A stretch of DNA of 64,000 nucleotides, taken from the NCBI GenBank assembly GCA_019454045.1, contig SKCR01038919.1:1-64000 (forward strand), read 5' to 3'. Positions 23,278 through 49,410 of the stretch are shown here, one piece after another. Position numbers and translations under genes: made by a program. A model generated the notes under the pieces. The model made no database searches. It saw only the letters and a program-made list of their open reading frames with translations, and had not been told where the DNA came from. Positions within the stretch are counted from its first letter, which is position 1. Each line of letters starts with the position of its first letter. Source of the stretch: Zanthoxylum bungeanum (lineage: Eukaryota; Streptophyta; Magnoliopsida; Sapindales; Rutaceae).

Positions 23278-23313
23278 TCTGAATTACCTGTTATTATTTC
23301 TTCTTCACTAACA

Positions 23314-24369
23314 TTGGAGCAGGAAGAAAAGCTACTGAGAGTGTTACGAGAGCACAAGAAAGCCATTGGCTGGACTATAGCAGACATTCGAGGCATTAGT
23401 CCATCATTTTGCATGCACAAGATCCTGATGAACGATGAGTACAAACCCACAGTGGAACATCAACGGAGACTCAATCCAATCATGAAGGAAGTCGTGAAGA
23501 AAGAAATCATCAAATGGTTAGATGCTGGCATCATTTACCCCATCTCAGATAGTAGTTGGGTAAGTCCTATGCAGTGTGTGCCGAAGAAAGGAGGAATTAC
23601 TGTGGTCACCAATGAAAAGAACGAGCTAATCCCAACAAGAACGGTGACTGGATGGAGAGTATGCATGGACTACAGGAAGCTGAACAAAGCCACGAGGAAT
23701 GACCATTTTCCGCTACCATTCATTGACCAGATGTTAGACAGATTGGCGGGACTTGAATTCTATTGCTTTCTTGATGGATATTCAAGGTACAATCAGATTA
23801 CCATCACACCAGAAGATCAGAAGAAAACCACATTTACATATCCATATGGTACTTTTGCTTTCCGCATGATGCCATTTGGATTATGTAATGCCCCTGCCAC
23901 ATTCCACCGTTGCATGATGGCCATATTCTCAGACATGTTGGAGCAGAGTATGGAGGTTTTTATGGATGACTTTTCGTGTTTGGAGATTCTTTTGACCATT
24001 GTTTGCAAAATTTGGAACAGGTGTTACAAAGGTGCGAAGATACAAACCTAGTACTCAACTAGGAGAAATGCCATTTCATGGTGCAGGAAGGCATTGTTCT
24101 TGGACATCGGATCTCACAAAAGGGGATTGAGGTAGACAAAGCAAAGATAGAGACAATTGAAAAACTACCTCCACCAACATCAGTTAAAGATATTCGAAGT
24201 TTTCTTGGACATGCAGGTTTGTACAGGAGATTTATCAAAGGCTTTTTCCAAATAGCAAAACCTCTTTGCAATATTCTGGAGAAAGATGTGCCTTTCAACT
24301 TCACCAAAGAATGCCAGGAAGCTTTTGAGATCTTAAAACAGAAGCTGGTCTCTGCCCCTATCATAGCAG
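23314..24369 (+). pseudogene. Athila-A reverse transcriptase, cut by X3
   Basis: The Gypsy RT shows AGIIYPISDSSWVSPMQCVP, RVCMDYRKLNKAT, the first catalytic Asp in CFLDGYSRYNQI (about residue 154), FRMMPFGLCNAPATFHRCM and FMDD (216-219). A frameshift just after FMDD (near 23975) and a TAG at 24060 follow. The thumb and start of the RNase H connection (HFMVQEGIVLGHRIS, FLGHAGLYRRFIKGF, FEILKQKLVSAPII) run up to 24369. There Copia X3 interrupts the reading frame exactly at target bases AGCAG. Coding resumes at 34271. Confidence 0.93.
24365..24369. repeat. Target site duplication AGCAG of Copia X3
   Basis: AGCAG lies at 24365-24369 and at 34271-34275, directly flanking the X3 LTRs. With one copy removed, the pol frame of Athila-A continues without a shift at this point. 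Confidence 0.95.
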
Positions 24370-26395
24370 TGTTGGTTATTTCTAAGGTCCCAAGATCAAA
24401 TCAAGACATGAAATAATGCGTGAACACATCAACGGAGGTAGCGGAATACTCACATTGATCGGTTATGTCGATTTGAAGACGAATCAAGGCCAAAAACGTA
24501 CTGCCTTGCTCACGCCACTGCAACCACCTGTCCATGCTCACTGTCTTGGCAGTTTCGGGTCTCAAAACGAAGCTCCAAACTCCATCGGATGAGTCCCGCC
24601 TCATGGTCGAACCTCCCTACCACCTTCGCAAGACTTGTAAGTGTGCTAGCACTTGATTTATCACCATGAGAAACCACTCTGCTTCCCTTATTGTCACGCC
24701 CAAACTGGTTCAAAACCAGTGAAGAATGGCCACCATTGCCGTGAGAGGAAGATAGAATTAGAGAGATTGAATTGTGTTGTATTAAAAATGATTTACCAAA
24801 AATCAATTTATATTTATGCCATAATATTTATTAAATTAATAATAAAATTATGACACAAAGCATGCAATGGCTTAGAGTGTCAAACACTCAATTTCCATGC
24901 AATGACATTGAGTGCAATGTACAACAATCTACATGCAATGCATTAGAATGACATGTGTCATGTGGGCCCCACACGTTTCCAAATGAAAGTGGGCCCACGT
25001 GCACTCACGCGTTCGGGTTCGATATTTCCGAAATACCGAGCTTACGTCGCGACGTTAATTCAATCGAATTTAAATAAATAATTGCGCCTAGCGAAATTAT
25101 TATTTACGTCGCTAACGAATTAATTCTAAATTAACTCGTTTGCCCGAATTAAAATCTAATTTTAATTCCGCGTCGAAATCTAATTTCATTTAATATATCG
25201 AATATATTAATTCATCGATCAATTCCAAATTAATCGTTCTCTCTCTTTAGACGACATTTTATCCCGGATAAAATATCTCCGTTATTAATCCTAGATTATT
25301 TTCTCTCTCTTCTTCTATTATAATCCCAGATTATTCAAGAGTGCGAGTTGTGCGTCATCGGTGGATTATCGGGAAGCGACCCATGAGATCCCCAGATAAT
25401 CTGGCAGTAAATACGGTCGTCGGAGTATCCGATCCGTCACCAGTACGTTCACAAGTACTACGTTCTACCGACTTACGAGACAAGTCGACTCCTAGCAAAG
25501 CACCAAGTCTACCCAATTCTCCGGACATATCCATTTAAGAATATTAAGATCTGTATCAAGCGTAGTATACTAATGTATTGTGCATATCGGTCCAGTATCG
25601 GATAGTCACGTGCTAGGGCTGGGGCTGGATAAGTGTCTGCCCCGTCCGAAACACATATCGGATGTCTGGTAACTAGTCTCTATAATCGGATATTCATGAC
25701 CTGGTCATAATATCACGATTGGATGCGCATCTCTTAAGAGCACTAATACTGTATCCTGCGTGACATCATCTCCACTATGACTGGAGTGATACTTCCGTCT
25801 TGACATCACATCCAATACACTACGATTCTCAATATCCCGGCATTGGCGTACACAGAACCGGTTAGAGTCCTAGACGACCTCAACTAAAGTATATCGATTG
25901 TCGTAAGCATTAGCGATGTAAGTCTCAGGTTAAGACTATACACACCTACCTTGATTTCGGCCTCCCATAGACACATATTCATAATACCAATGGGATTCCG
26001 AGGGGTCTTCCAGAGCGAAGCTGTTTCCCGTACCATCGGTGAAACACGACCTCCTATCGCACTTGCATAAGCATCCAATACTTATCTATATGAGAACTAT
26101 GCCGTTGTGCCCTCACAACGCACACAAGTGCAATACTAGCCTATTCCGCATTATCGATGTCCAGTCTCGATAATACTCCGGCTAGGGATATTTAATGATT
26201 AATCCATCGGGGACTGATACTGTCTCATATCATTCTCAGTCCAGGAACTAATCATAGGGACCTCTCTTCATTTATATATCTAAGGTGATCTAATCACAAA
26301 TGATGAGAGTGCAATTTCCTTGTCAAATAGTTAATTTGCTACAACAACACAATGATCTGTGCAAATAGTGACGCTATGGGTCATTTTGTCCAACA
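24370..26395 (-). repeat. 3' LTR of Copia X3
   Basis: This 2026-bp LTR is nearly identical to 32242-34270, with scattered small indels (for example near 24520, 24747 and 25430). It contains a perfect palindrome CGTCGCGACG near 25044. Being left on a minus-strand element, it is the 3' LTR. Confidence 0.93.
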
Positions 26396-26408
26396 ATCTC
26401 CCACTTGG
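26396..26408 (-). other. Polypurine tract of Copia X3
   Basis: The minus strand reads CCAAGTGGGAGAT immediately before the 3' LTR. Confidence 0.8.
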
Positions 26409-29014
26409 CACATAGCCAGTCACTCGAGTGTCTAACACCCGAACTATGTACGGTTCGCTCAAATTGCTGAGGAAAAGTTTTCGTCAGCGGATTTGTATGA
26501 TTATCGTCTAACGCGATTTATACGATCATCACATCGCCACGATGTATGATCCGAACGAATCAGATGAATATAGAAGTATATATCTGGATCGTCGATGAGA
26601 CCTTTAATTCTTTAGCCTTGTGCTGACGCCTAGCTCAGCTGCTAACAGAACTATATCTAATCTAATTAGATTTATTATCGACCCAAATGGCTTCTATTGC
26701 TGCCTCAGCTGCAGCAATAATCCGCATTTGTTGTTTATTCGGCAACAGTTATCTTGCTCGGAAGATTTCCAGCTCACTGTCCCGTTATTCAAACTTTATA
26801 GTACCGCAGTATTTAATTTTTTGGAAACTTGTAGCAGTGATCCCAGTCACTTCAAGTTCTCCTTCTCCATAGTTTAAGACAACATCTTTAGTTCTCTCAG
26901 ATACTAACAGATGTTCTTAATGTTCAATCCAGTGACTATCACTTGGATTGACCCAATTGTGACTCCATATGCTCGAAGCGTATGAGACACCATACAAGTA
27001 CATTTTAAATGTACAATTTCCCAGAGAGTGTTAACAACTCCAAATCTATCCCAGTAGATCTTTATTCCCTGAATAAAGGTTGTTACTCCCCAGAATTCTA
27101 CGGAGAATTTCTATTGAAAGAATATCTATGAAAGCCAAGCTTTCACCAATTGCTTTATTGGAATTTCATTGTCAGTGCCCTCTCCCACTAACCTCCTTAT
27201 ATACACAAGAATTATTTCGTTTTGAGTCAAATCATATCATTATGATTATTTCAAAACGACAGTTCCAAGAACCTTATGCTTGCATTAATCCAAACATGGA
27301 TTGAATAACCCGCAAACCTCGTTTTTGGTTATACAAAATCGTCAGGATGTTGTAAACATCCTCCAAAAGGTTTCATTTTCAGGAAAGCGATTTTGATCTG
27401 CATCTGACACATTTCATAAATGAAATATGCAGTATTAACAAGCATCATCAAAATGGATTTACTATGGCAACAGATAAAAGGTTGAACCGTTATTAACACA
27501 ATGTTGATAACGATACCTTTTCGTCAAAGCCTAGCTTTGTACGTTGGTTTGTTACCATCCATGTATGTCTTCCTTGAAGACGATTACAGTACCATAGGCA
27601 CAATGCCTTGTGGTACAACAACTAGTATCCAAAATAGTTGTTATACATGGAATCCACTTCGGATTCATGGCACTTTGCCATAATAGGAAGTCGATACCTC
27701 GTATCACTTCCTCAAAACGTAGTCGGTGGATATACCTTCATAAGATTGACATCTTATGAGGTTAGATCAGAAACCCATACCCTAGGTTGTTTTCTGACTC
27801 TATCCGATCTACTAGTTTCTGTGTATTTGAAGATTAATGGTTTAGATTCATCCTAGATGAACTATTTGTGTTCCATTAAGGACTTCGTGCCTTGAACAGT
27901 ATTACTCCGATTTTCATCGAGTATCACTATCCTCCCACTGACCACTGCATATCGGTATTCCTCTAAGGAAAAACCGCATGGTGAGCAACAATCACATTGT
28001 TCTCATGTGGGATTTATAAGTACTATACTTAAGGTTTCCCTTAGGATAACCTATATTGGCACTTATCCAATTTAGGTCTTTTAGTTTGGTATCATCCAAA
28101 ACGTTATGCTTGGCATACCCAAATTATCAGGAATGAGAAACCTCGTTTCTTCCCTGTTCATATCCTATATGACATCTGTCAAACAGATTTATATGGAACC
28201 TTATTCTAAATAAGTTTTGCACTGTTAATACATATCCTATTGAAGGAAATAGTAGCTCAGAGCGACTCGTGATAAACCTTATCATGTCCAACAAAATTCG
28301 GTTTTAGTTCAGCACACACCGTCTAACTGACGTGTCTCGGGAGGAGTCCTCACATGAAAGAACACCGTACTCTTTCATTATATATGAAACTTACTGCTTA
28401 AGTATTTTCCATTTCGGTCTTACCGTGGCGGAATAACACTATAGCCGATCTGTTTGTTTTCTTCGTGTCGAAACTTCAAAAGTTTCCGATCTGTGTTCTT
28501 CAAAAGAAACACATAACCACAACGTGATGCTACATCCGTTAAGGTCACGAAATATTCATGTTCAAATCTAGCCTAGCTAGATATGGGCCCAGTAATTCAC
28601 CATGATTAGGGCTAACAGATCAGTGGCCCTTTTACTATTACCAAGTAAATAGTATTTTAGGTATTTAACCTAATAAACTAGATTCGTAGACCTTATTTGA
28701 ATAGTCAAATCAGTCCTAGTACCCACTCTTAAAAGGTGTGGATATACGAGTCTTTTTAATTGTGTCCTAGACAACAATGCCACAAATAAGTCTCATTGAT
28801 CAAATTAATTTAAGCTATTTATTTGTTCATTTTATATGTTTGAGATTTTATTATATTCAAAATATAAATTCTGTTTTTACATCCAATGTATTTATCTCAG
28901 TATCATCTTTATATAATGAAACACTTAGTGTTCTAGAATATAAAGGTTTTCTCCGCATCGGATTAAACACTGATATAGAGATAATGTCTCTAGTCAAACT
29001 AGTTACATTATAAC
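26409..29014 (-). pseudogene. Degenerate Copia pol of X3
   Basis: No frame longer than about 85 codons survives. The minus strand near 26440-26560 still echoes the RNase H terminus (HIV..., then a DNPADPLTK-like pattern). The stretch is collinear with 41828-44412 (X2) and, in reverse, with 1-2345 (X). The three copies share many of the same lesions, so much of the decay may predate their transposition. Confidence 0.6.
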
Positions 29015-32000
29015 ATTTCCTAATTAAGTACATACCCAAAGGGTAGTTCCTAAACTTAGGTATCTACGGTCGAAACAGCGACTTTCGTCCCGTTTCCAAT
29101 TCGCAGAGAAATCTCGGCTTGAAGCCAGATCCAGCTCACAGCGGATTCTGAACGTCAATACATATATATATTATGTACCACACTAAGTATTTAAAATCCA
29201 ATTTCAATACTAGTAGTAAACATAACTTTGACAAATATTTTTAAAGTTAGAGCCTCGCCCTATCTTTACTTCCTTCGTGTCTTCCATATCCAAATGGTAG
29301 TCACTTTGGGAATATGTCAATTATCTTTTCAATATTTCACAAACCTTTGGCCAAGCCTTGGGTTTTAGAATATCGAAATGATATGCACCTTGTGCTACAT
29401 GCCCAATTGCAAACTTTGACTTTTTCTCCCCTAGAATAGTCAATTAATTGCAACTTTTAATACTTTTAAATCTAAAGATAGATTTATTATAGTATATTAA
29501 TTAAGCAAAAGTCATCATCACATAAATCTTCCAAAGACTTATGCTCTACTATTTGCTTAATAATGGGCTAGTTCCATAATAAGTTATTTTATCAAATAAA
29601 TTAACCTATTATTAATTCCCAATTGAAAATTAAATCATTTAAAAGCATTTAATCTCAATGATTATATATTTTAAATATTCAACTTTTCAATTCTTTCTTG
29701 ATTTCAATAGTCCAACTATTTAATCAATTAATAAGGTACATTATTATAATGATTACAATAATCCATTATATTAATCAACTATAATTTTAATATTGATTAC
29801 TATAATCTAATTTAAAATCAACTATCATTTTAATCCAATTATATTGATTACTATAATCCAATTATAAAATCAACTATATATTGAATGAGTTTGTATATAG
29901 TCAACATATCTATATTTAAAACAACATAAAATATTTTAAAACATAAAACTATTCGTCCAACTATACTTTTGATTAATATGACGAGTAAAATATAGATGAG
30001 CGCGTTAGCGAGGAGTCTTCGAACGAATGTTGCAAATTCAATACTTGCCTCCCACTATTTTCGTCGAGCCTCTAACCCTCCGTCGAGTACTCGGGAAACC
30101 GTGTTTCCTAGTGGGCTAGGATCCCGTTAAATATCACACAATCTTGACTTTGGCCAACAAATTGTATGATAATTAACTAGGTAGATCTCGAAGATCAATT
30201 GGATCTCATCCAACTCCTAGATCCAGTAGGGACATCCAAGTCCCAAACATATATCTTATATATGCCTATACATCGAATGTATACCCTAACCTTTTTCCTC
30301 TGAATCAACTAGGCCGTTGGCTTTGGCACAAAAACCTAGTGATCCCAGTCAAGCGCGGACCCATTGACATGGAAGCCGTAATCAATGTCAATGGACAAGA
30401 AGTGGTCTTGACTTTGGCAACACAAACCCACAACTGGACACGACACGATATGAACAAAGCCTCGTGATTAAAAACACATCTTCGACGGACAAGGGCTTGA
30501 CTTTGGCCAACAACCCCCTGCCAATCTCGGATCTTGAGTAAGAATCACCAATGGAAGGAAAATAAACGCTTGATATTTAATGCGGGGTTTTTCGCCGTGC
30601 AAATTGGCTACCAATTATTATTATTCTGTTAGGTCTCATCATCATACACCCTTAAACATGCATTCTAAATACATAATAAAGCGAGTAGTATGAAATAAAA
30701 TATAATGATATGCGGATGGATACTTAACACATTGATCCTAGATCAAATCTCTCCCTTTCTCACTCAAGCTAGCACTTTATTACTTCTACCCGTTACCACT
30801 ACACTTCTAAAAGAAACCTCTATACATAGAGGGGAATAGGTGAGAAGAGAATACAAAGAGAAAGAAGGTGATAAGGCTGGACACGCAGGTCCAATTTAAT
30901 AAATCGAATATTACAACAATTTTAATTACCCACCCGACTAATATCCATCCGATATACATTTTCATTCAACACAACGATGTATTCACACACATAAGCATGC
31001 TATCAATCAATCTAATCAAATTATTAATCTGATAATTAAGTGATCATCCAATGTTCAAACAACGATTTGATTTTGTTCGAGTCAAACTCGTTTGGGTGCG
31101 AATAAGTACTTAAAGTACGAATTCATGAATTAAATTAAACTACATCATTAAATCTAATTTAACATGATTTAATACTAATTCCACTATTCAATTCAAAATT
31201 AAATATTACACTTTTATTTAATAAACCTTTTACGATTTAAATTCCAAATCTAATCGTAACGCGTCTCAAAAACCGATTAACGTCCAACGTCAATTCAATT
31301 AAAGTCCAATGGGCTTTTGATTGATTTCTTAAGGCGTGGACTTTTGGTCAACTCGGGTCAAACCGATAACCAAAGTCCAATCCGGGATTTACCCCATAAG
31401 CCCATAAATCAATCTTGGCCCATTAGGCCCAATTGAACTTTAAAGGTTCATTAAGTCGCATTTGGGCTTTATGGTCAAGGTTTTGGGCCCAATTGGATCC
31501 AATCCATTTGGCCTAAACCAAACTGATAAATCAAGCCAATAGGCCCAAATACAACATTTAAATCCAATTTCCAAAATTAGGCCCAAATAATAAATTCAAA
31601 AATTCAATTTTCACAATTTAATTACCCAAAAGTGCATTATATGATTAATCAACTAAATCAACATTTCTAAAACACCATATTAGTCAATTAATCATGCTTG
31701 ATTCATTATCATATGTCCAACACACAAAATTGAAAAATCAAACCCATCTACATGCTTAAAGGTCTCGGCCAAGGGAGTGATTTCATGTCCAATTCGGTTT
31801 CAATCCAATTAATCCGCAATCGACATTAAAAAACATATCCCGAATGATTTCCAATACATCCAATTATCAAATCAAAAAAATTACCAAGACATTAGGGCTA
31901 TACACACCATTCGGCCAAGGTAAGATTTTGGGGGTTTTGTCCAATTCGAAATCCAATCCAATTCGATTCCAATTAACATCAACCTAATCGATTCTAACTC

Positions 32001-32227
32001 ATCAAAGAATTAAAAATCAAAAATCCAAGATCCCAAAATTCAATGACATTCGGCCATGGCATTATTTTGGGGGGGAAAAATAATTCCAAATCATTTTCAT
32101 CAAATTAGTCCAACCAAAATGAAATTAAACATGTTATGAGCATACTTAAACAATCAATTTATTCAAATCATGCTCAACAAACATTTAGCCAAATTTTAAG
32201 CCCTACATTTTCATGCTTGCAACATTA
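29015..32227 (-). other. Long AT-rich internal region of X3 without recognisable gag
   Basis: This 3.2-kb stretch lies between pol remnant and primer site. I see no Gag motif or zinc knuckle in any frame. A short phrase CTTGACTTTGGCCAACA recurs three times (30143, 30407 with one base missing, 30496). GGCCCAA/TTGGGCC words are frequent at 31300-31600. It may be an unusual leader, a replaced gag or host-derived filler. Confidence 0.5.
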
Positions 32228-32240
32228 GCTCTTGATGCCA
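32228..32240 (-). other. Primer binding site of Copia X3, variant
   Basis: The minus strand reads TGGCATCAAGAGC one base inside the 5' LTR. It is a variant of the initiator-Met site TGGTATCAGAGC, with one substitution and one inserted base. Confidence 0.65.
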
Positions 32241-32241
32241 T

Positions 32242-34270
32242 TGTTGGTTATTTCTAAGGTCCCAAGATCAAATCAAGACATGAAAATAATGCGTGAACAC
32301 ATCAACGGAGGTAGCGGAATACTCACATTGATCGGTTATGTCGATTTGAAGATGAATCAAGGCCAAAAAACGTACTGCCTTGCTCACGCCACTGCAACCA
32401 GTCCATGCTCACTGTCTTGGCAGTTTCGGGTCTCAAAACGAAGCTCCAAACTCCATCGGATGAGTCCCGCCTCATGGTCGAACCTCCCTACCACCTTCGC
32501 AAGACTTGTAAGTGTGCTAGCACTTGATTTCTCACCATGAGAAACCACTCTTGCTTCCCTTATTGTCACGCCCAAACTGGTTCAAAACCAGTGAAGAATG
32601 GCCACCATTGCCGTGAGAGGGAGAGGAGAGAGAATTTGAGAGAGATTGAATTGTGTTGTATAAAAAATGATTTACCAAAAATCAATTTATATTTATGCCA
32701 TAATATTTTTAAATTAAATATAATAAAATTATGAACAAAAGCATGCAATGGCTTAGAGTGTCAAACACTCAATTTCATGCAATGACATTGAGTGCAATGT
32801 ACACAATCTACATGCAATGCATTAGAATGACATGTGTCATGTGGGCCCCACACGTTTCCAATTGAAAGTGGGCCCACGTGCACTCACGCGTTCGGGTTCG
32901 ATATTTCCGAAATACCGAGCTTACGTCGCGACGTTAATTCAATCGAATTTAAATAAATAATTGCGCCTAGCGAAATTATTATTTACGTCGCTAACGAATT
33001 AATTCTAAATTAACTCGTTTGCCCGAATTAAAATAAAATCATTTAATTCCGCGTCGCAATCTAATTTCATTTAATATATCGAATATATTAATTCATCGAT
33101 CAATTCCAAATTAACGTTCTCTCTCTTTAGACGACATTTTATCCCGGATAAAATATCTCCGTTATTAATCCTAGATTAATTTTCTCTCTCTCTTCTATTA
33201 TAATCCCAGATTATTCAAGAGTGCGAGTTGTGCGTCATCGGTGGATTATCGGGAAGCGACCCATGAGATCCCCGGATAATCTGGCAGTAAATACGGTCGT
33301 CGGAGTATCCGAATCACGTACGTACCAAGTACTACGTTCTACCGACTTACGAGACAAGGTCGACTCCTAGCAAAGCACCAAGTCTACCCAATTCTCCGGA
33401 CATATCCATTAAGAATATTAAGATCTGTATCAAGCGTAGTATACTAATGTATTGTGCATATCGGTCCAGTATCGGATAGTCACGTGCTAGGGCTGGGGCT
33501 GGATAAGTGTCTGCCCCGTCCGAAACACATATCGGATGTCTGGTAACTAGTCTCTATAATCGGATATTCATGACCTGGTCATAATATCACGATTGGATGC
33601 GTATCTCTTAAGAGCACTAATACCGTATCCTGCGTGACATCATCTCCACTATGACTGGAGTGATACTTCCATCTTGACATCACATCCAATACACTACGAT
33701 TCTCAATATACCCGGCATTGGCGTACACAGAACCGGTTAGAGTCCTAGACGACCTCAACTAAAGTATATCGATTGTCGTAAGCATTAGCGATGTAAGTCT
33801 CAGGTTAAGACTATACACACCTACCTTGATTTCGGCCTCCCATAGACACATATTCATAATACCAATAGGATTCCGAGGGGTCTTTCCAGAGCGAAGCTGT
33901 TTCCATACCATCGGTGAAACACGACCTCCTATCGCACTTGCATAAGCATCCAATACTTATCTATATGAGAACTATGCCGTTGTGCCCTCACAACGCACAC
34001 AAGTGCAATACTAGCCTATTCCGCATTATCGATGTCCAGTCTCGATAATACTCCGGCTAGGGATATTTAATGATTAATCCATCGGGGACTGATACTGTCT
34101 CATATCATTCTCAGTCCAGGAACTAATCATAGGGACCTCTCTTCATTTATATATCTAAGGTGATCTAATCACAAATGATGAGAGTGCAATTTCCTTGTCA
34201 AATAGTTAATTTGCTACAACAACACAATGATCTGTGCAAATAGTGACGCTATGGGTCATTTTGTCCAACA
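32242..34270 (-). repeat. 5' LTR of Copia X3
   Basis: 2029 bp, TGTTGGTTATTT to TTGTCCAACA, paired with 24370-26395. The target duplication AGCAG follows at 34271. Confidence 0.93.
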
Positions 34271-34700
34271 AGCAGCACCAGACTGGACCCTTCCATTTGA
34301 GGTAATGAGCGATACTAGTGATTTTACTGTAGGAGCAGTTTTGGGACAACGTAAAGAAAAGATTTTCCACACCATTTACTACTCCAGCAGAACTCTGAAT
34401 GACGCTCAACTCAACTACACAACCACTTAAAAGGAGTTGCTTGCAGTTGTGTTCGCTTTTGACAAATTCCGCTCTTATCTGTTGGGTCCCAAAGTGGTGG
34501 TCTACACAGATCATTCAAACAATCAAATATCTGATCACGAAAAAAGATGCCAAACCCATATTGATCCGTTGGATACTTCTTCTACAAGAATTTGATGTGG
34601 AGATTCGAGACAGGAAAGGGACAGAGAACCAGGTGGCAGATCATCTATCGAGGCTCGAGAATGGAGAAACAGCTGACAAAGATCTTTCAATCAAAGATAC
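34271..34700 (+). pseudogene. Athila-A RNase H, resumed after X3
   Basis: The Gypsy pol frame resumes with PDWTLPFEVMSDTSDFTVGAVLGQ and [15 protein letters not shown], followed by a TAA at 34428. [17 protein letters not shown] and VVYTDH follow, and then, after an indel near 34515, [27 protein letters not shown] and [11 protein letters not shown]. These are the standard Ty3/Gypsy RNase H and linker motifs; the Asp of MSD and YTDH belong to the active site. The domain is disabled by the stop and the frameshift. Confidence 0.92.
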
Positions 34701-36029
34701 TTTTCCAGATGAACAGCTGTTTGCCATGAAACAACAGGAAGTCCCTTGGTATGCTGACTATGTCAACTACATTGTGTCAGGAAAATGGCCGTTGGAATGG
34801 ACAACTCAGCAACGGAAGAAGTTTTTAAAAGAAATCAAGCATTATGTCTGGGATGAGCCTTACATGTTCAAAAGTTGTGCTGATCAATTATTGAGACGAT
34901 GTGTTCCACAGGAGGAGGTCAACAGTGTTCTGCAGCACTGTCATTCATAACCATATGGCGGACACTTGAGCAGAAACAAAACTGCAGCCAAAGTCCTTCA
35001 ATCAGATTTGTTCTGGCCCACTCTTTTTAAAGATGCTTATCTTTTTGCTAATGTGATAGGTGCCAGAGAACGGGAAATATTTCCAGGAGAAACGAAGGAC
35101 CGTTGCAAAACATTCTAGAAGTGGAAATATTCGATGTGTGGGGTATAGATTTCATGGGACCGTTTGTTCCATCATTCGGAAACCTGTACATTCTGGTTAC
35201 TGTGTACTACATCTCGAAATGGGTTGAAGCAATTGCATTGCCCTCCAATGATTCAAAAGTGGTGATCAAATTCCTGAAAAAAAATATTTTCACTCGGTTT
35301 GGAACACCTCGTGCAATCATCAGTGATGGTGGCTCTCATTTCTGCAACAGATACTTCGGTGCACTCATATCCAAATACGGAGTTACTCACAAGGTTACCA
35401 CAGCTTACCATCCACAGTCAAATGGACAGGTTGAGGTTTCAAACAGGGAAATCAAAAGAATCCTAGAAAGAACCGTTGGATCAACAAGAAGGGACTGGTC
35501 AACAAAACTAGATGATGCATTATGGGCCTACCGGACAGCTTACAAGACACCCATTGGTATGTCCCCATATCGATTGGTGTTTGGGAAAGCGTTCCATCTG
35601 CCAGTTGAGCTTGAGCACAAGGCATACTGGGCACTGAAGAAGTTGAATTTTGATTCACAACCTGCAGGAGAGAAAACACTTCACCAACTCAACGAATTGG
35701 AGGAATTTCGCCTACAGGCTTATGAGAATGTCAAATTGTACAAGGAAAAAACTAAAAAATGGCATGACCGAAAAATAGTGCACAGACAGTTGGAACCAAG
35801 GAAGCAGGTGTTGTTGTACAAATCGAAGTTGAAACTTTTCCCTGAAAAGTTGAAATCTAGGTGGTCAGGTCCATTTATGATCACTCAGGTTTTACCTTAT
35901 GGAGCGGTTGAGTTACTGGATCCCAATACCAACAACACATTCAAAGTTAATAGTCAGCGTGTCAATCACTATTGGGGAGAATCATTTGAGCGACAAAAAG
36001 AAAGTGTTACACTTTCAGATCCAGCTTAA
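34701..36029 (+). pseudogene. Athila-A integrase
   Basis: The N-terminal zinc-binding part is damaged ([11 protein letters not shown], then a stop and loss of its second cysteine pair near 34950-35080). The rve core in the 308-codon open stretch from 35103 is intact, with Asp16 (WGIDFMGP), Asp75 (ISDGGSHF) and Glu111 ([12 protein letters not shown]) giving the DD35E spacing. [24 protein letters not shown] and the C-terminal [12 protein letters not shown] domain follow. No chromodomain is present, consistent with Athila/Tat. The frame ends at 36029 within the Gypsy consensus. Confidence 0.93.
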
Positions 36030-36167: not shown

Positions 36168-36611
36168 ATGGAAGAAGCTCTCGCAAATCTTCGCAAGCAA
36201 TTTCCTTCCCTCCCTCAAAAATCTCTGATGAAAGTTTACAAAGCTCGCTTGGAACGGATGAGGTTACTGATGATCAAAGGTATTCCTACTGACATTCATT
36301 GGTTAATTGAAGCACGGGTCCGATTGGCAGGTGACTCTTATGACTCTTTTATTTCACATCTGCCTGGTTTAGGAAAGAGCGCATATGCTAAAAAGAGAAG
36401 AGCCAAAAGAATGTGTGTTTGTTATAAATGTGCTCGTATGTTTTGTAATACTCTTTGTCGTTCTTTAGGAATGGTGTCTGATAACCGCGAAGATAAGATT
36501 TATTTCATTAGGGATGGCTTAAGTAAGGAGTCTTTGGATGACATATCTAAAACTCTTGAGACGCATCCCAGTGGATGTGTGTATCATGAAATTCGCATGT
36601 TATATGCATAA
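36168..36611 (+). CDS. 147-aa cysteine-rich basic ORF, NABP-like, in Athila-A
   Basis: This ORF is intact, 147 codons from ATG 36168 to TAA 36611, in the sense orientation of the element, 138 bp after integrase. Residues 1-66 are leucine- and arginine-rich and probably helical. Then GLGKS (67-71), a basic stretch KKRRAKR (75-81) and a cysteine cluster (Cys 83, 85, 88, 93, 97), followed by KIYFIRDG (110-117). A basic KRR-type run directly before a CX2C-type cluster is the pattern of the nucleic-acid-binding cysteine-rich proteins (NABP, PF05515) of carlavirus-like plant RNA viruses, which bind RNA and in several cases suppress silencing. This resemblance is by motif only; the cysteine spacing is tighter than typical. 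There is no signal peptide or membrane segment, so it is not an env protein. Being the only unbroken ORF of the element is notable. An unrelated element-specific protein is the alternative. Confidence 0.55.
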   Translation: MEEALANLRKQFPSLPQKSLMKVYKARLERMRLLMIKGIPTDIHWLIEARVRLAGDSYDSFISHLPGLGKSAYAKKRRAKRMCVCYKCARMFCNTLCRSLGMVSDNREDKIYFIRDGLSKESLDDISKTLETHPSGCVYHEIRMLYA

Positions 36612-36974
36612 TTCCAAAAGGAAAGACAACTGTTAAGTCTCGGGAATCTGACTCAAAAAGACCTTGTTTGCCAATTTATAAGAAAATTGGATGGGAAGCT
36701 TGTCCCTGACGCATAGACGTCAATCAAGCCGTTACTTTTCTTGTAAATATTATATCTCTTTGTCTTTTCTTAATAATTGTGATTTGTTTTGTTGTTTTTC
36801 TTTTGTTTTCTTCGACAGGATCTAGACCTTTTTGACTATCACGATATTATTTCGTTACTAATCGTCCTCTGGAAGATACTTGTGCTATTTTTACTCACCC
36901 TTTTCAGGTACTATAAATTCAGCCTGTCATTGCACTTTTGAAGGCATCCAGAGTTGAGAAAGAAATACATAAAA
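36612..36974 (+). other. Spacer between cysteine-rich ORF and LOG-like copy
   Basis: No open gene is seen. Two pyrimidine-rich runs end in acceptor-like CAG (TTTTCTTCGACAG near 36819, ACTCACCCTTTTCAG near 36907), so a spliced leader for the LOG-like sequence is conceivable. A short frame with DLVCQFIRKLDGKLVPDA (about 36660-36716) is not assigned. Confidence 0.4.
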
Positions 36975-37298
36975 ATGGAAGCCACTTCAAGAAGACGAGT
37001 TGAAAATATCTGTGTATTTTGCGGTACTAGTGTTGGAACTAAGCCACAATACATAGAAGCAGCACAGGAATTGGGTCGAGTCTTAGCTGCAAGGAATATG
37101 CACTTAATATATGGCGGAGGCAATCTTGGACTAATGGGGATCGTTTCAAAGGCCGTACAGGAAGGAGGCAGTCATGTTTTGGGAATCATCCCAAAACCCT
37201 TGGCAGAGGCAAATCTTATTGGATCATCAAACGGAGAGGAACTGATCGTGCCAGTAGTGTTGGTGTTGGTGTTAAGCCATTTGTTGAAAACGAGTTGA
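36975..37298 (+). pseudogene. LOG-like: LOG-like captured gene, N-terminal copy 1
   Basis: ATG 36975 opens an intronless N-terminal half of a LONELY GUY type cytokinin riboside 5'-monophosphate phosphoribohydrolase. These cytosolic/nuclear enzymes release active cytokinin bases. Seen: ENICVFCGTSVGTKP (nucleotide-binding loop start), AAQELGRVLAARNMHLIYGG, GNLGLMG, SKAVQEGGSHVLGIIPKPLA and GEELIVP. Homology stops at 37253. A spacer of about 37 bp that partly repeats the 5' motif then shifts into copy 2, ending this frame at 37298 after about 107 codons. It lies inside Athila-A between integrase and 3' LTR, same strand. Cellular LOG genes have several introns, so the intron-free state points to capture from RNA. 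Confidence 0.85.
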
Positions 37299-37923
37299 AA
37301 ACAATTGTGTGTTTTACGGTAGTAGTGTTGGTGTTAAGCCACAATACGTAGAAGCGGCACAAGAATTGGGTCGAGTCTTAGCTGCAAGAAATATGCACTT
37401 AATATATGGCGAAGGCAATCTTGGACTTATGGGGACCGTTTCAAAGGCCGTACAAGAAGGAGGTAGTCACATTTTGGGAATCATTCCAAAACCCTTGGCA
37501 GAGGAAAATCATATTGAACCATCAAACAGAGAGGAACTGATTGTGCCAGGTATGTCTGAATGACTGGTAGAAATGATTAACCGTGTTAATGCTTTTATTG
37601 CTTTGCCATGTGGCTTGGGTACATTGGAGGAAATTTTTATTGTGCTATCTTGGGCGAATCTGAACATACACCATAAACCAATTGGGCTGTACAACGTTGA
37701 TGGATTTTATGATTTTCTTTGTGTATTTCTTGATGATGCCCGGAGAAATGGGTTCGTGTCAAAACCTTTGAAAGAACTCCTATTTACTGCCAGAACTGCT
37801 CCGGATCTAATTTACCAACTCTTAGCCTATGAACCACGAGTTGACTCTATCCTTTCAAAGATAAATTGGTCCGAGGACGATCGTGGTAAGAGGCGTCGTG
37901 TTAATCTGGATCTTAACGTTTAA
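37291..37923 (+). pseudogene. LOG-like: LOG-like captured gene, N-terminal copy 2 plus C-terminal half
   Basis: A second N-terminal copy (37291-37548) aligns without gaps to 36996-37253 (258 bp each) but lies one base out of frame with copy 1. It runs into the C-terminal half: AFIALPCGLGTLEEIFIVLSW, KPIGLYNVDGFYDFL and a basic tail KRRRVNLDLNV. The LOG signature PGGxGTxxE appears as PCGLGTLEE, with Gly changed to Cys. In this copy YGGG is YGEG. A TGA at 37561 falls in the M-x-x-R-x-x-x-M region where the family has a catalytic Arg. From 37291 the frame covers about 211 codons, close to full LOG length, interrupted once. It is probably non-functional in this copy, though the ancestral captured gene may have been intact. 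Confidence 0.88.
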
Positions 37924-39189
37924 TTTCCTGTAGATTTTCAGCTAACCAGGTACGACCTTCTTAACTCTCCTTTTACTGTTAAAGACATTGGGGACAATGT
38001 CTCATTTAGGTTTGGGGGAGGTAATTAGTTGATCAGTACCTTGTTTTTAGTTTGTGCTCTTTTTATTTTTAGTCCAAAATTTTTCGAAAAATACAAAAAA
38101 AAATTTTGAAAAATTGAAAAAATTACAAATTTTTTTTGTGTTTTTGTGTTTTTATTTTGACTAAAAAGGGTGAAATTGGTGAGAGATAACTGAGTAAGGA
38201 GTTTCCACTCCTGATACGTATCTCAAACCTATATCGGAACAAGTTAATTTTTGTTTATTTCCTTTTGAATTATTTAATTTGTAAATTCTCCATAAAATTG
38301 ACTAAAATGGATCTTCATATGTTCAGTTAGCAGATATTATCAACATACATAGAAACATACGGACATGAACTAAAATTAATTGGAGTAAGCATCTAAAAAA
38401 AAAACATATGAGATCCGAGTTATTAAGTCTGTAAAGGTGTTTTAACACCTAGTGCCCTAAAACCAACTGGTTTGGGAGTCACTGGCCCAAAGCTCGTTAC
38501 ATGGATCAAAGATGTTGCAAAAATATATATATCTGAAGTCTGAGTAATTGAGTCCGTAGGGGTGTCTTAACACCTGGTGCCCTAAAGCCAACTGATTTGG
38601 GAGTCACCGACCCAAAACTCGCTACATAGACGGAAGATATTGTATATAAATAAAAAAAATCAAAAATAAAAAAAAAATCAGAAAAATCAGAAAAATTATT
38701 CCATTGCTGCAAAAAGATGTGAATTCTGATAAAACTTTAGGACAAAAATATTACTCTCTTATCAACTACACTTGTGACTGTTGTGGGCAAAAATGAGTTG
38801 ATTAATATTTTGTCGACTGTATATATGGAGAATGGTAAATATAATCGGAGAATTTACTTATTCGGTAATTTAGAATGAAACAAAACAACTGTTGACTTGG
38901 TGTAGAAGTTTCACCTGATTAGTCACTAACTTCTTTATTCTCTTTTCTCTTGTCTTTTTGCTTTTGTGTGCATTAGTTTTATTATCTTTTTACTTTTGTA
39001 AAACGTTTGTGGGTATCGTTGCTGTAAGCCCTCACGAGACTATAACTCATCTACTAGGGACACCTAGGGGTTTAAAGGCTTGTTGCATATGCTAAATGCA
39101 ACTGTGATCCCTACGAAAGTGGCTTAGTTTAATTTTAATTGTTTATTGTATTGTATTTTATTTTTTTGCTCGAGGACTAGCAAAATGTT
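37924..39189 (+). other. 3' untranslated region of Athila-A
   Basis: This non-coding region starts with GACATTGGGGACAATGTC, an inverted repeat usual before Athila/Tat polypurine tracts, and an internal polypurine-like AGGTTTGGGGGAGG (38008-38021). Then come T- and A-rich runs, two tandem units of about 120 bp (about 38405-38520 and 38530-38645) each with a GTGT..ACACC hairpin, and a stretch shared with Athila-B (14284-15279). No gene is seen. Confidence 0.7.
38008..38021 (+). other. Internal polypurine-like tract
   Basis: AGGTTTGGGGGAGG shares its first eleven bases with the terminal tract at 39190 but lies 1.2 kb before the LTR. It could act as a second plus-strand primer or mark the original end of the element before 3' sequence was acquired. 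Confidence 0.5.
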
Positions 39190-39202
39190 AGGTTTGGGGG
39201 TG
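39190..39202 (+). other. Polypurine tract of Athila-A
   Basis: AGGTTTGGGGGTG immediately precedes LTR start TGATGAGCGG at 39203. Confidence 0.9.
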
Positions 39203-41225
39203 TGATGAGCGGAAAATATATCAATATTTACCGCCCCTTTTACTTAATATTTTGTTTAGTTTCTCAGGTTTGATGAACGTTTTGATGTGTTTTAGTTTAT
39301 TTTGCAGATAAAATAATATTGGGACACAATGAAATCATTTAGGACGAAATGTGGGTCAAATAAGGGCAAAAAGTGGACTGGACATATTAATTTTGGAGAT
39401 TGGAAACTTGAAAGGGCGTTTTAACGAAGTGCAGTTTTGGAAATTCCAGTTTTGTCCATCTGTCGTAATTTGGGCATAAATTTTTACTCCGATATCGAAT
39501 TGAGCTGATTCAAGTTCCAGATTAAAGAAGACTCAAAGATCTACAGCTTTAAAAGACAAAATAATTTCGAATTCTGAATATTTCATTCCCGAAATTGATA
39601 AACCATCCATAAGGGTGTTGTGTGTAATTATTAAAGTAACTTTCAATCATTTTCAAAGCAAAAAATAAATTAATAAATAAATAAATAAAAAAATTATCAA
39701 ATCATCACCAAACATGATAAGAAATTAGTGGAGCAATTAATAATTGATTTGGTGGATGATTTGATGGAGGCAAAATTTTACCTATAAATACCAAGTCATT
39801 TCATTTGTAAAATTCATACTTTCTTCTAAAGAATTCCTTAAGAATACTAAGAAGATTGTATATTGTTTGTTTATTTATAGCTTTCAGTAATTAATTTCCG
39901 CTTTCGCACTTTCTTTTCTTTACTTTTCAGTTTTTACTTCCGCAATTTACTTTTACGCACAATACTTTTCTTTCTTTAATTTTCAGTTTTTTTTACTTTT
40001 CAGTAATGAGGAGGTAACTCCCCTTTGCTGGGGTAAAGGTAAAACTTTTATTACTAATATTTAGATTAATCTCCCTTAATTATAATATATAAACTAGTTA
40101 AAACCTGACTTAACGAGGATACCGCCATATTGGTCGGTTGGTAATTATTTAAATTGGTTTTAACCTGACTAAACTGGATACCGCCTGATTGGTCGGTTGG
40201 TAATTAATTATTAATTTGACTTCATCTGGATACCGCCTATATGGCTTGTTGGTAATTATCATGCAAAGTTAATATATTATATTAAGGGAGATATCTAAAA
40301 TAGAAGTAATAAAAGTGGATCTTTTTACCTCAGCATTTTCTTTTATTGTAATTTTACTTTATTTACTTTCAGTAATTTACTTTCAGCATTTACTTTCAGC
40401 ATTTAATTTTCAGTATTTATTTTCAGTATTTAATTTTCAGTATTTTACTTTATGTCTTTTATTTTATTTAAGTTTTTTTACTACTCGTATATATGTGGCG
40501 TAACTAAGCCAGTTATCTGGGGTTGTGATGAAATCCAATATCACCGGTTTATAAGGGGTTGAATTATAGTTTGGGTAATTTAAAGGTTTACTTATTAAGT
40601 CTTAAGCTTAATGCGTCTTGTTAATTGGCCGCTAATAAGATTGATGTGGTAAATCTAAAATAAACTTGACAAGGAATTTTAGGTTTCAGCCTTAGACTTA
40701 ATAGCCCACAATCTTCCTTGATGATAGATAATCCTTTAATAGATTTCCTTACAGGATAGACATATACCTGTCGGGCGGGGATAGCCATAATTGGAACTTA
40801 AACTTAATGAATCCACATAATTTGGTTGACATAGACATATGGTTCAATTGGGTTAAACTGGGTATTTGCGTCTGACCATCGACAGAGGCTTTTGCATAAT
40901 TTAGTGTTCCAGGTTAGTAAACCGATTTATTACACAAACATAAAATAACCACTTCATCTTTAAAATGATATTGGAAGAAATCACAACCCTAGATAGTTTT
41001 TAATATTGAATTTTCTTAAACCTACATTCGAGCAATTTTATTTACTTGTTTTTAAATTCAAAACCTTCATCATTTCAAATCAATCAATCAACATGTTAGA
41101 TACTAGTAATCATTTGACCTCATAAAATTAATGGATTACGTATTAAGTCCTCGTGGGATCGATTCTTTTTATACTACTTGAACGATACGTGCGCTTGCGT
41201 TTTACGCGTGTGTAAGCACCGGTCA
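39203..41225 (+). repeat. 3' LTR of Athila-A
   Basis: 2023 bp, TGATGAGCGG to CACCGGTCA, paired with 18652-20675. It has a TATA box at 39783-39790 and the same internal tandem units near 40110-40260. Short differences between the two LTRs are scattered throughout. Confidence 0.93.
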
Positions 41226-41230
41226 CTTGA

Positions 41231-41827
41231 CATCACACCCAACACACTACGATTCTCGATATACCCAGAAGAGGCGTACACAGAAACCGGTTAAAGCCCT
41301 GGATGACCAAAACCAAAGTATATTGATTGTCGCAACTATTAGCGGTGCAAGTCTCAGGTTAAGACCAAATACACCTACCCTAATTTCGGACTTCCATAAA
41401 CACATAGTCATACTACCAATGGAATTCCGAGGGGGTCTACCCAGAGCGAAACTGTTTCCCATACCATCGGTAAAACACAACCTCCTATTACACTTGCATG
41501 AGTATCATATACCCAAATATATGAGAACTATGTCGTTATGCCCTCATAACGCGCACAAGTGTAATACTAGTCTTTTACACATTTATCGATGTCCAATCTC
41601 GATAATACTCTGACTAGGGATATTTAATGATTTATCCTTCGTGGACTGATATTGTCTCATATCATTCTCAATCCAGGAACAAATCATATGGACCTCCTAT
41701 CATTTATACATCTTGGTGATCTAATCACAAATGATAAGAGAGCAATCTCCTTTGTCACATAGTTAATTTGTACAACAACACCATGATCTGTACAAATAGT
41801 GACGCGATGGGTCATAACTGTCCAACA
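41231..41827 (-). repeat. 3' LTR of Copia X2, part 2
   Basis: This continues the LTR cut at 18651. It is collinear with 25800-26395 and ends GTCCAACA at 41827. Together the two parts are about 2065 bp. Confidence 0.85.
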
Positions 41828-44412
41828 ATCTCCCACTTGGCCTATAGCCAGTCACTCGAGTGTCTTACACCCGATCTATGTACGGTTGGCTCAAACTGCT
41901 GAGGAAAGGCTTTCGTCAGCGGATTTGCATTATTATCATCTTATGCAATTTATTCGATCATCACATCGCCACGATGTATGATCCGAAAGAATCAGATGAA
42001 TATTCGAAGTATATATCTGGATCGTTGATGAGACCATTAATTCTTTAGCTTGTGCTGACGTCTAGCTCAGCTGCTAAGAGAATTATATCTAATCTAATTA
42101 GATTTAGTACCGACCCAGAAGGCTTCTATTGCTGCCTCAGCTGCATCAATAATCCACTTTTGTTGTTTATTCGATAACAGTATCTTGCTTGGAAGATTTC
42201 CAGCTCACTGTACCGTTATTTCAAATTGTATAGTACCGTTTTACGACTCACAATCATTTTATCGGTTGGGAAACTTGCAGTAGTGATCTCAGTCACTTCA
42301 AATTATCCTTCTCCATAGTATAAGACAGCATCCTTAGTTCTCTAAGATACTAAAGGATGTTCTTAAAATCAATCTTGTGACTATCACTTGGATTGGCCTG
42401 TTTGTGAATCCATATGCTCAAAGCGTATGAGACACCAGGTCGCGTACATTTTTCAATGTACGATTTATCGGAGAGTTTAATGAAAGCCAAGCTTTCACCG
42501 ATAATATTATGGGAATATCATTTCCAAGAAATGACATGTCATCATTATTTATAGGACATTTATTGTCAGTGCGCTCCCACTAACCTCCTTATATACACAA
42601 GAATCATTTCATTTTGAATTAAATCATAAACTATTATGATTACATCAAAACGGTAATTCCAAGAACCTAATGTTTGCTTCAATCCAAACATGGATCGAAT
42701 AACCTGCAAACCTTGTTTGCCAGTTTTGGTACGATAAAACCGACAGGATGTTGTAAACATCCTCCAATAGGTTTCCTTTTCAGGAAAACGATTTTCCCGT
42801 TCAACTGTCATATTTCATAAATGAAACATGTAGCATTAGCAAGCATTATCCAAAATGGATTTACCGTGGCAACAGGTAAAAGGTTGAATCGTAATCAACA
42901 CAATGTTGATAACGATAGCTTTCCGCTAAAAGCCTAGCTTTATACGTTGGTATATTGCCATCCATGTATGTCTTCCTTGAAGACTTATAAAGTACCAGTA
43001 GGCACAATGCTCTGCGGTACATCAACTAGTATCCAAACTTGTTGATATACATGGAATCCATTTCGGACTCATGGCACTTTGCCATAATAGGGAGTCGATA
43101 CCTTGTATCACTTCCTCATACGTAGTCAGTTGGTATTCCTCAATAAGATAGACATCTTTATGAGGGGAGATCAGAAACCCATACCCATGGTTGTTTTCTG
43201 ACTCTCTCCGACCTACGCGGTTCTTGTGTATTCGAAGATTATTGGTAATAGTTTCATCCTTGATGAACTATTTATGTTCCATTAAGATTCGGTGCCTTGG
43301 AATAGTATTACTCTGATTTTCATTGAGTTTTACTATCCTCCCACTTACCACTGCATATCGGTATTCCTCTTAGGAAAACCGTATGGTGAGCAACAATTAA
43401 ATTGTTCTCTCGTGAGTTGTATAAGTATTATACTTTGGTATCCCTATGATAACCTACAATTTGGCACTTATCCGATTTGGGTTTTAGTTTGGTATCATCC
43501 AAACATATGCCTAGCATACCCAAATTTACAGGATTAAGAAACCCGGTTTCTTTCTTGTTCATATCTAATATGATATCTGTCAAACAGATTTTTATGGAAC
43601 CTTATTCTAAATAAGTTTTGCACTGTTTATGCTTATCCTGTTGAAGGAAATGGTATCTCAGAGCGACTCATGATTAGCCTTATCATGTCCAACAAAATTT
43701 GGTTACTCTGTTCGGACACACCGTCAAATTGACGTGTTCCGGGAGGAGTCCTCATTGAAAGAATACTATACTCTTTCAAGTATTTGAGAAACTTATTGCT
43801 TAAGTATTTTCCATTACAGTGACAGTTTAATACTTTAGCCGATCTGTTTATCTATTTTGTGTCGAAACTATAAAAGTTTCTGATTTGTGTTTCAAAAGAG
43901 ACACATAACCATAACGCGATGCCACATCCGTATAGGTCATGAAATATCCATATCCATCTCTAGCCTAGCTAGACATGGGCCCACTTTCTTCATTATGAAC
44001 TAGGACTAACAGATCGGTGGCATTTACACTTTTACCAAGTAAATGTGTTATAGTCACTTTGCCCAATGAACTAGATTCGTAGACTTTATTTGATTTGAAT
44101 CAAAACAGTCCTAGTACCCACTCTTCAAAAGTGTGGATATACGATTCTTGTTTAATTCTGTCCCAGACAACAATTCCACTAATTAGTTTCTTCTGATCAA
44201 ATCAGTTTGAGCTGTTTGTTTGTCGTGTTATACGTTTGAGATTTTATTTATATTCAAAATATAAATGTTGTTATTCACATCTAATGTGTTTATCTCAATA
44301 TCATCTATATATAATAAAACACTTTAGTGTTCTAGGATATAAAGGTTCACCCGCAGCGGGTTAAACACTAATATAGAGATAATGTTTCTAGTCAAACTAG
44401 TTACATTATAAC
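41828..44412 (-). pseudogene. Copia X2 polypurine tract and degenerate pol
   Basis: The stretch begins with the reverse of CCAAGTGGGAGAT (41828-41840), then carries decayed pol collinear with 26396-29014. Small frames such as GKQGLQVIRSMFGLKQTLGSWNYRFD (minus, near 42620-42720) are remnants of the RT motif YGLKQASRSWN. It ends abruptly at GTTACATTATAAC (44412). Confidence 0.7.
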
Positions 44413-45172
44413 AGATCGGTGGCATGGAATTCATTTGTCTAAAGAATAGTCTCCTAAGACACCTCAAGGAGTTGAGGAGATGAGACATATATCATATGCT
44501 TTAGCAGTTGGAAGTCTTATGTATGTTATGTTATGCACGAGACCGGACATCTGTTTTACAGTGGGAGTATTCAGTAGGTTTCAATCCAACCCAGGATTAG
44601 ATCATTGGGTAGCGGTGAAACATATTCTCAAGTATCTACGGAGAACGAAAAATTATATGCTTGTATATACAAGTCATGATATGATTTCGAGAGGATATAC
44701 AGACTCTGATTTTCAGACCAATGTCAATTCTAGGAAATCCACATCTGGATCAGTGTTCACCCTAGGTGGTGTGGCTATAGTATGAAGGAGCATAAAGCAA
44801 TCTTGTATTGCTGACTCCACCATGGAGGCTAAATATGTAGCAGCTTGTAAAGCAGCTAAGGAATCAGTCTGGCTCCGTAAGTTCTTAGCAGATTTGGAAG
44901 TTGTTCCAGATATGGGTAAACCGCTCACACTTTATTGTGATAATAGTGGTACATTGGCGAACTCCAAAGAACCAAGAAGCCACAAGAGGGGTAAACATAT
45001 TGAGAGGAAATATCACCTCATCAAGGAGATAGTGCAGAGAGAAGATGTTATTGTCACGCAGATTCCATTCGCAGACAACCTGGCTAATCTGTTTACAAAG
45101 ACCTTATCAGCTAAAGTGTTTGAAGGTCACATAAAGGGTTTAGGATTACATGACATGTCCCGTTTGCTCTAG
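44413..45172 (+). pseudogene. Copia Z reverse transcriptase end and RNase H
   Basis: This is the 3' end of a plus-strand Copia polyprotein. The frame joins within RT just before HGIHLSK (with a stop in AKE*SPKTP) and runs through SLMYVMLCTRPDICFTVG, HWVAVKHILKYLRRTKN, YTDSDFQTN and SRKSTSGSVFTLGG. A TGA at 44783 (Trp position) follows, then MEAKYVAACKAAKESVWL, LYCDNSGTLANSKEPRSH, KHIERKYHLIKEIV and the terminal DNLANLFTKTLS. The polyprotein stop is TAG 45170-45172. The 5' part is missing; the break against X2 is at 44412. It is a different family from X and Y. Confidence 0.9.
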
Positions 45173-48881: not shown

Positions 48882-49410
48882 CATTCCTTTGTAGCCAAGT
48901 GACTTAGATGCTTGGGGTTGGTCTTTTCCCAATGCCTCTCTTTGTCAGATTGGCTCGGGGCTGGATTACGTCCCATCGAGACCCTATTGCTATGTGTTGG
49001 CGCAATAAGGGATCATTCCCTTGCAGCCAAGCATCTTAGATGGCTTGGGGCAGTCTTTTCCTAAGGCCTCTCTTTGTCAGATCGGCTCAGGGTTGGGTTA
49101 CATCCTGCTGAGGCCCTATTATTTTCTGTTGGCATAAGGAGGGATCATTCCCTTGTAGCCAAGTGGCTTAGATGGATTAGGGTCGGTCGTTTCCTAAGGC
49201 CTCTCTTTGTCAGATCGGCTCGGGGATGGGTTACGTCCCGTCGAAGCCCTAATACTGTGTATTGGCACAAGGATGGATCATTCCCTTGTGGTCTAGTGAC
49301 TTAGATGGCTTGGGTCAGTCTTTTCCCCATGGCCTCTCCTTGTCAGATTGGCTCGGAGTTGGGTTATGTCCCACCGAGGCCCATTTCTATGCGATGGACC
49401 GATGAGAGGT
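48882..49410. repeat. Tandem array of four units of about 132 bp
   Basis: Units start near 48882, 49014, 49146 and 49279. Each begins CATTCC(C)TTGTAGCCAAGTG and contains CCTCTCTTTGTCAGATCGGCTCGGG and GGGTTACGTCCC-like segments in fixed order. Divergence between units is moderate. Short open frames across it are repeat-driven, with no protein resemblance. Confidence 0.85.

Follow-up and report, generated by a model that had tools for sequence, protein, structure and literature searches.

That plant LTR retrotransposons can carry a captured LONELY GUY (LOG) gene is known in outline. Steinbauerova et al. (2011) are said to mention in their abstract two Athila-like elements similar to LOGL4. In Citrus sinensis and C. 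clementina, consensus sequences of LTR retrotransposons contain a YgdH/LONELY GUY domain according to Alvarado-Marchena et al. (2022), and a YgdH-domain element of Populus trichocarpa appears when the filter of that study is not applied; the accessible text presents this as agreeing with Steinbauerova et al. 2011 and places all of its atypical domains in Gypsy-type elements (PMC9289625). The locus considered here is a LOG-like sequence in a 64-kb stretch of Zanthoxylum bungeanum DNA (the whole stretch analysed, called the window below), and it likewise has a LONELY GUY-family domain in a Gypsy-type element. The original prediction held that such a capture had not been described for this lineage, a claim that fails because the Citrus and Populus cases had already been reported (PMC9289625). 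A shared tail, a single clade or an adjacent ORF resembling viral nucleic-acid-binding proteins (NABPs) is not mentioned for those elements in the accessible part of the paper (PMC9289625).

Other systems resemble the locus in part. Elements of the Athila/Calypso/Diaspora group have an env-like gene, or none in some members of the lineage, according to the portion of the source available; in the window the same slot holds an NABP-like ORF and a LOG (PMC1142308). Gypsy elements of Phalaenopsis that encode an RNA demethylase of AlkB type are likewise a case of an extra ORF kept by a sublineage, and domains of this type are present in Alphaflexiviridae, Betaflexiviridae and Closteroviridae as well. 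These elements differ in belonging to an Ogre/Tat-like lineage and in carrying a different enzyme, which is active in vitro (PMC9289625, accessible text). Flexiviruses encode proteins that act as silencing suppressors (PMC12172455, in part), and one of them, p12 of Chrysanthemum virus B, is also described as a transcription factor inducing hyperplasia (PMC12172455, PMC7588395, both in part). The flexivirus cysteine-rich proteins and NABPs, p12 among them, are matched by profile in the window over a basic stretch and a cluster of cysteines. Lazareva et al. (2015) reportedly described polypeptides of insect retrotransposons that contain viral helicase domains; these are similar in that an RNA-virus domain is found in a retrotransposon, and unlike the window in their insect host and in the helicase.

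On balance, the locus is probably best read as an Athila-lineage retrotransposon with a two-gene 3' module in the env-like position, consisting of a conserved virus-like zinc-finger ORF and a captured LOG that has been kept by selection.

The host element

The LOG-like sequence had been predicted to lie in a complete Gypsy element flanked by target-site duplications. A Ty3/Gypsy LTR element does span positions 18652-41225 of the window, with the following parts.

18647-18651, no strand: left target-site duplication CTTGA, read from the flanks
18652-20675, plus strand: 5' LTR, 96.6% identical to 39203-41225 by self-BLAST
20682-20699, plus strand: primer-binding site, 18 bases, beginning 6 bp past the 5' LTR
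21265-21564, plus strand: gag piece, Retrotrans_gag (Pfam PF03732, 2.9e-10)
23278-24048, plus strand: reverse transcriptase piece (Pfam RVT_1, 1.3e-17)
24367-34271, no strand: nested LTR element with LTRs at 24367-26396 and 32239-34271, 97.4% identical by self-BLAST
34272-34427, plus strand: RNase H piece, where the outer element resumes 3' of the nested one (Pfam RT_RNaseH_2, 7e-12)
35052-36026, plus strand: integrase (Pfam rve, 2.9e-15)
39190-39202, plus strand: polypurine-tract-like stretch touching the 3' LTR, by sequence inspection
39203-41225, plus strand: 3' LTR, about 2 kb like the 5' LTR, by self-BLAST
41226-41230, no strand: right target-site duplication CTTGA, read from the flanks

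The paired LTRs (K2P 0.030, with 60 of 2018 compared sites differing), the CTTGA duplication and the Pfam pieces in Gypsy order (gag, reverse transcriptase, RNase H, integrase) bear out the predicted Gypsy element and its flanking duplication. The word complete applies to its ends only, because the nested LTR element interrupts pol, with Pfam pieces for reverse transcriptase and RNase H on either side of the cut; the gag pieces, for their part, are spread over more than one frame. The 18 bases of the primer-binding site are what we take to be the complement of tRNA-Asp. In the close Athila relatives Diaspora and Calypso, a tRNA-Asp site is placed 5 bp past the LTR in the available portion of the source (PMC1142308). 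From the primer site and the arrangement of the parts, the element is classed as probably of Athila/Calypso/Diaspora type. Pfam gave no match to the env-like/Athila ORF families (PF03078, PF20167) at E 0.01 among the pieces scanned, which took in the main pieces and ten further open stretches, six of them within 38190-39092. A Yuri_gagarin match at 0.0069 in the further open stretches is sub-threshold and is taken as chance.

The surroundings of the element are rich in other repeats. At 14283-17089 there is a fragment of a second, related element, pieces of which are similar to 38251-39311 (89-91%) and to a portion of the LTR (85%); neither LOG nor NABP-like sequence was found within this fragment. 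A repeat that is 84-90% identical between its copies occurs at 1-3667, 25071-29015 and 41226-44413, both inverted and direct, with one copy directly adjoining the Athila element on its right and others inside the nested element. Another LTR element occupies 4213-13731 (ends 4213-6610 and 11337-13731, 97.5% identical), and by eye the ORFs on its minus strand at 6727-10584 resemble those of Copia elements. Tandem repeats are found at 62090-63694, where the unit is about 60 bp in the first half and there are long, artefactual-looking ORFs of GNKTH type, and at 48882-49391, a short array of about 132-bp period whose copies are about 81-83% identical.

The LOG segment in the window

The LOG-like sequence at 36975-37923 lies on the sense strand between the integrase and the 3' LTR, as predicted, and its translations match the LOG/lysine-decarboxylase-like domain in Pfam (PF18306 at 2.5e-11 and 3e-10, PF03641 at 7.2e-21). 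The solved structure closest to it is At2g37210. The segment contains the following features.

36975-37254, plus strand: LOG copy 1, start codon and N-terminal half, reading on to a stop at 37296
37288-37923, plus strand: LOG copy 2, family residues 7-217, nearly full length, without a start and with an in-frame stop at 37561-37563
37888-37920, plus strand: C-terminal basic and EAR-like tail of LOG copy 2, from the translation; the final residue is not the usual Leu
37985-38018, plus strand: GGGGACAATGT / GGTTTGGGGG motif 3' of the LOG, a short tblastx match to the element L003 described below, where the motif is similar in kind

The predicted absence of introns holds over residues 7-217: positions 37288-37920 align with these residues of an intact 217-aa relative in one 211-residue tblastn match at 82% identity, and there are therefore no introns in that stretch. 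The identification as LOG stands as well, but what had been taken for a single sequence consists of two overlapping copies in different frames, an N-terminal half and a nearly full-length copy. A 276-bp N-terminal stretch is duplicated, with 36979-37254 recurring at 37274-37549 at 88.4% identity (self-BLAST). Template switching between two diverged LOG-bearing genomes is a plausible origin of this duplication. Judging by its reading frames the window LOG copy is broken, and in the translation PGGxGTxxE, which we take to be the LOG family signature, is changed. A tblastn search of the window at E 0.01, with seven relatives as queries, found no further LOG or NABP copies.

The two half-copies give an indication of age and constraint. 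They differ at 32 of 276 sites, as against 60 of 2018 in the LTRs (Fisher p 5e-9), a roughly fourfold greater divergence that makes the LOG older than the insertion; by this measure the capture is old and predates the arrival of the element at its present position. The original prediction had itself named the alternative, in which a processed LOG pseudogene entered this single element late and independently. Such an insertion would suit the intronless and broken state of the sequence, but the excess of half-copy over LTR divergence contradicts it, as does the want of a target duplication specific to the LOG: the longest word common to the LOG flanks has 7 bases, which is within the range of 500 shuffles. 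The closest relatives, moreover, are intact proteins of a tailed type and not ordinary plant LOGs. On the divergence and the flanks the late insertion is rejected as very improbable, and with the intact relatives the same evidence supports capture of the LOG by an Athila-type element. In 261 in-frame bases the half-copies show 13 synonymous and 15 non-synonymous differences, giving a dS of 0.250, a dN of 0.079 and a dN/dS of 0.32 (binomial p 0.006); with 28 differences the sample is small, and the ratio falls on the side of constraint.

Relatives of the captured LOG

A search of 5.8 billion proteins returned 557 LOG homologues, and the figures in this section are from the 120 matches listed. 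The nearest of these are intact 217-aa proteins, for example P0121 (82% over 100% of the query), and further relatives among the matches listed include nine rows from Diplodiscus trichospermus and two from Orobanche minor. When P0121 is compared with solved structures, a plant LOG is best at 6.1e-54, and the best non-Arabidopsis structure is at 5e-41. The plant LOG cytokinin riboside 5'-monophosphate phosphoribohydrolases (2a33, 1ydh) are thus of the same family, and the signature is present in the intact relatives. Unlike ordinary plant LOGs, however, the window-type LOGs are a long-branch clade with an added basic and LxLxL tail.

The tree behind this statement has 49 rows, 48 of the 120 listed and one window piece. 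Eighteen rows, which were labelled as retrotransposon type by us on the basis of tail and similarity and include P0174 from Orobanche, form one clade with 100/100 support, present in 100% of 200 bootstrap trees. It is separate from the 10 ordinary plant and 20 bacterial LOGs, with a stem of 0.75 changes per site, and spans rosid and asterid rows, including Malvaceae and Orobanche. The original prediction had proposed such a tree as a means of finding the donor. The ordinary plant LOGs do not group together in it (2 changes; a single group of the 10 in 34% of bootstrap trees), and it points to no particular donor subfamily; the clade may be nested among the plant LOGs or stand beside them.

LxLxL is the EAR repression motif. 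A basic and LxLxL-like C-terminal tail is present in 26 of the 120 listed homologues, using a pattern that was loosened after looking at the tail table; the strict LxLxL end is found in 21, all within the 26. None of the 15 rows classed by our judgement as ordinary plant LOGs has the tail (eight of these being near-identical Populus/Salix rows). Another 14 rows were judged to be truncated window-type and one, P0174, to be degraded, and the other 64 are bacterial or unnamed, with the tail pattern in none. Thirteen of the tail-bearing rows have 217-220 aa, and in 12 of these PGGxGTLEE is kept. In the window LOG the signature motif is lost, as is the final residue of the tail, and P0174 is likewise without both in strict form. 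The tail suggests that these proteins were remade for a nuclear role and not kept only as enzymes. The window LOG is the sole one seen within an element, the others being proteins without DNA context; we infer an element location for them because of the clade, the tail and, in Diplodiscus, the nine differently named annotated genes. Viral contigs scanned for LOG yielded two matches at 27%.

These data bear on the possibility that the LOG is a passive passenger, transduced by chance and of no benefit, which persists through co-amplifying copies, so that a broken copy is its normal fate. Gene transduction by transposons has been described in plants (PMC7264820, in the part available), and the state of the window LOG, duplicated, with the longer copy lacking a start and having an in-frame stop and a changed signature, is what would be expected. 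Against this are the half-copy dN/dS, small sample as it is, the full-length tailed proteins with their retained signature, and a single clade that extends across rosid and asterid rows. Taken together this makes a mere passenger unlikely, and retention of the LOG under selection is the preferred reading.

The zinc-finger open reading frame

A second extra ORF accompanies the LOG.

36168-36608, plus strand: ORF of 147 aa with a basic stretch and a Cys cluster, between the integrase and the LOG

It matches the Pfam families Viral_NABP (5.7e-8; 33.4 bits, cut-off 23) and Carla_C4 (1.4e-5; 25.4 bits, cut-off 20.9), and may be described as a profile homologue of the nucleic-acid-binding and silencing-suppressor proteins of Beta- and Alphaflexiviridae. 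In the window the ORF stops early, at 36609, and its remainder is still recognisable by tblastn at 36612-36713. Both extra genes are thus broken in this copy, to go by their frames.

A search with the NABP-like ORF gave 423 homologues, and Carla_C4 is a precomputed match on each of the 120 listed. Within 17 family members scanned at E 0.01, Viral_NABP matches 14 and Carla_C4 16. Named rows among the matches listed are from Xanthoceras, Populus, Acer, Rhamnella and Orobanche, and the rows listed in a further search, made with a 64-residue alignment, add Parasponia and Striga; all named homologues listed are therefore eudicots (rosids and Orobanchaceae). One fragment in the family, P0296, has been named 'ribosomal protein L37E' by a source, which is probably a misannotation. 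The length is commonly about 182 aa (180-186 aa in 75 of the 120 listed), and the pattern C-x2-C-x4-8-C-x2-4-C is present in 110 of the 120. The basic stretch is seen in an alignment of 16 homologues with the window ORF (A1); a larger alignment (A5) holds 90 of the 120 listed and the ORF of L003.

L003 is the one relative that was found in a scan of genome contigs, which yielded 39 pattern matches. Positions 1-3330 of this contig are filed under a metagenome-assembled genome (MAG) of Candidatus Nomurabacteria and read as a fragment of a plant Athila-type retrotransposon; its presence in a bacterial MAG is probably contamination. Its 3330 bp contain an integrase ORF, then an intact NABP ORF of 182 aa, and then the motif GAGGACAATG / GTTGGGGGG, with no LOG between. 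The zinc-finger ORF follows the integrase, then, both in the window element and in an independent, LOG-less one. Between the two elements the NABP ORF has a dN of 0.245 and a dS of 1.21, and the integrase stretch a dN of 0.314 with dS saturated. By dN, therefore, the NABP ORF is no less constrained than the integrase. Because the NABP ORF is also present in this diverged element without a LOG, albeit one element only, the LOG is best read as the addition, and an Athila sublineage would have added it to a conserved NABP-like 3' module.

Comparison with viral proteins

The likeness to viral NABPs is known by profile and by comparison of predicted models. The models are both weak, with a pLDDT of 53 for the window ORF and of 67 for the L003 ORF (91 sequences). 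A Foldseek search of predicted viral structures with the window model returns 45 matches, of which not one has an E below 0.001. In ranks 1-31, four rows are nameless and the 27 with a name are without exception flexivirus proteins, mostly labelled as RNA silencing suppressors or as proteins that bind nucleic acid or RNA. Several of the family assignments within the flexiviruses are presumed by us. The L003 model gives 42 matches, again none below E 0.001, and all 18 named ones in ranks 1-20 are flexivirus proteins, with lower ranks mixed. Over the named top matches identities are 16-44%, and TM-scores normalised by the query are 0.11-0.27; because these scores are low, the signal is mostly one of sequence. 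The viral top matches have 62-225 aa, fragments included, and come from RNA viruses, while the retrotransposon family has about 182 aa and N- and C-terminal regions of its own. A PDB fold search came back empty. No virus-named row is present among the 120 listed of 490 hits in a search with a 64-residue alignment at E 10, and two scans found no NABP relatives in viral contigs.

The likeness may be one of convergence, in which a basic patch and four cysteines were arrived at separately by an unrelated nucleocapsid-like or env-position protein. In favour of this, the viral profiles cover only about residues 33-120 of the ORF, and the empty PDB search and the low TM-scores agree with it, as does the limitation of the likeness to profiles and predicted models. 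On the other hand, two separate Pfam families match above their curated cut-offs and do so again in most of the family members scanned, and flexivirus proteins head both model searches. Convergence is accordingly regarded as improbable, and shared ancestry with the flexivirus proteins is preferred. The direction of exchange is another matter. Flexiviruses may have taken their NABP from a plant retrotransposon or a host gene, or both may go back to a shared host ancestor, and we consider this a serious possibility, though short of an even chance. The size of the retrotransposon family, with its 423 homologues and listed rows named from rosids and Orobanchaceae, speaks for it, as does the constraint on the ORF in the one comparison available, that of the window with L003; the data give no root from which a direction could be read.

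How the module may work

With the two-gene module as the preferred reading, the following course of events is proposed. The LOG would have been captured once, via RNA, from a plant LOG, and then retained under selection. In intact relatives of the window element both proteins would be made from transcripts of the element, which may be spliced. Spliced messages are on record for the Bagy2 env-like ORF in the accessible part of a published account (PMC7264820), and the pyrimidine-rich CAG sites that lie upstream of both the NABP and the LOG ORF (by eye, unscored) would suit such messages here. The zinc-finger protein is predicted to enter the nucleus or to bind RNA, and so to weaken silencing of the element by the host. 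The LOG, with its basic stretch and EAR-like end, is predicted to act partly in the nucleus, where it might raise the level of active cytokinin in the expressing cell or recruit a corepressor of TOPLESS type. A benefit of cytokinin to the element in the meristem, as the original prediction had suggested, is speculation.

A more far-reaching version would have a widespread Athila sublineage carry a functional homologue of the flexivirus suppressors in the env position, as a result of exchange between virus and retrotransposon, with one branch adding a nuclear, TOPLESS-recruiting LOG; the two proteins would then be a kit that acts against RNA silencing and reprogrammes cytokinin in the founder cells of the germ line. 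In this full form the proposal is doubtful.

As to an NABP-like ORF in an LTR retrotransposon, no description was found in the open-licence literature, which is weak evidence of absence. The locus bears on the means by which LTR retrotransposons of plants evade RNA-directed silencing, and on the role of their extra 3' ORFs. Should the NABP-like ORF do what its relatives in viruses do, a large family of retrotransposons would have an anti-silencing factor of its own.
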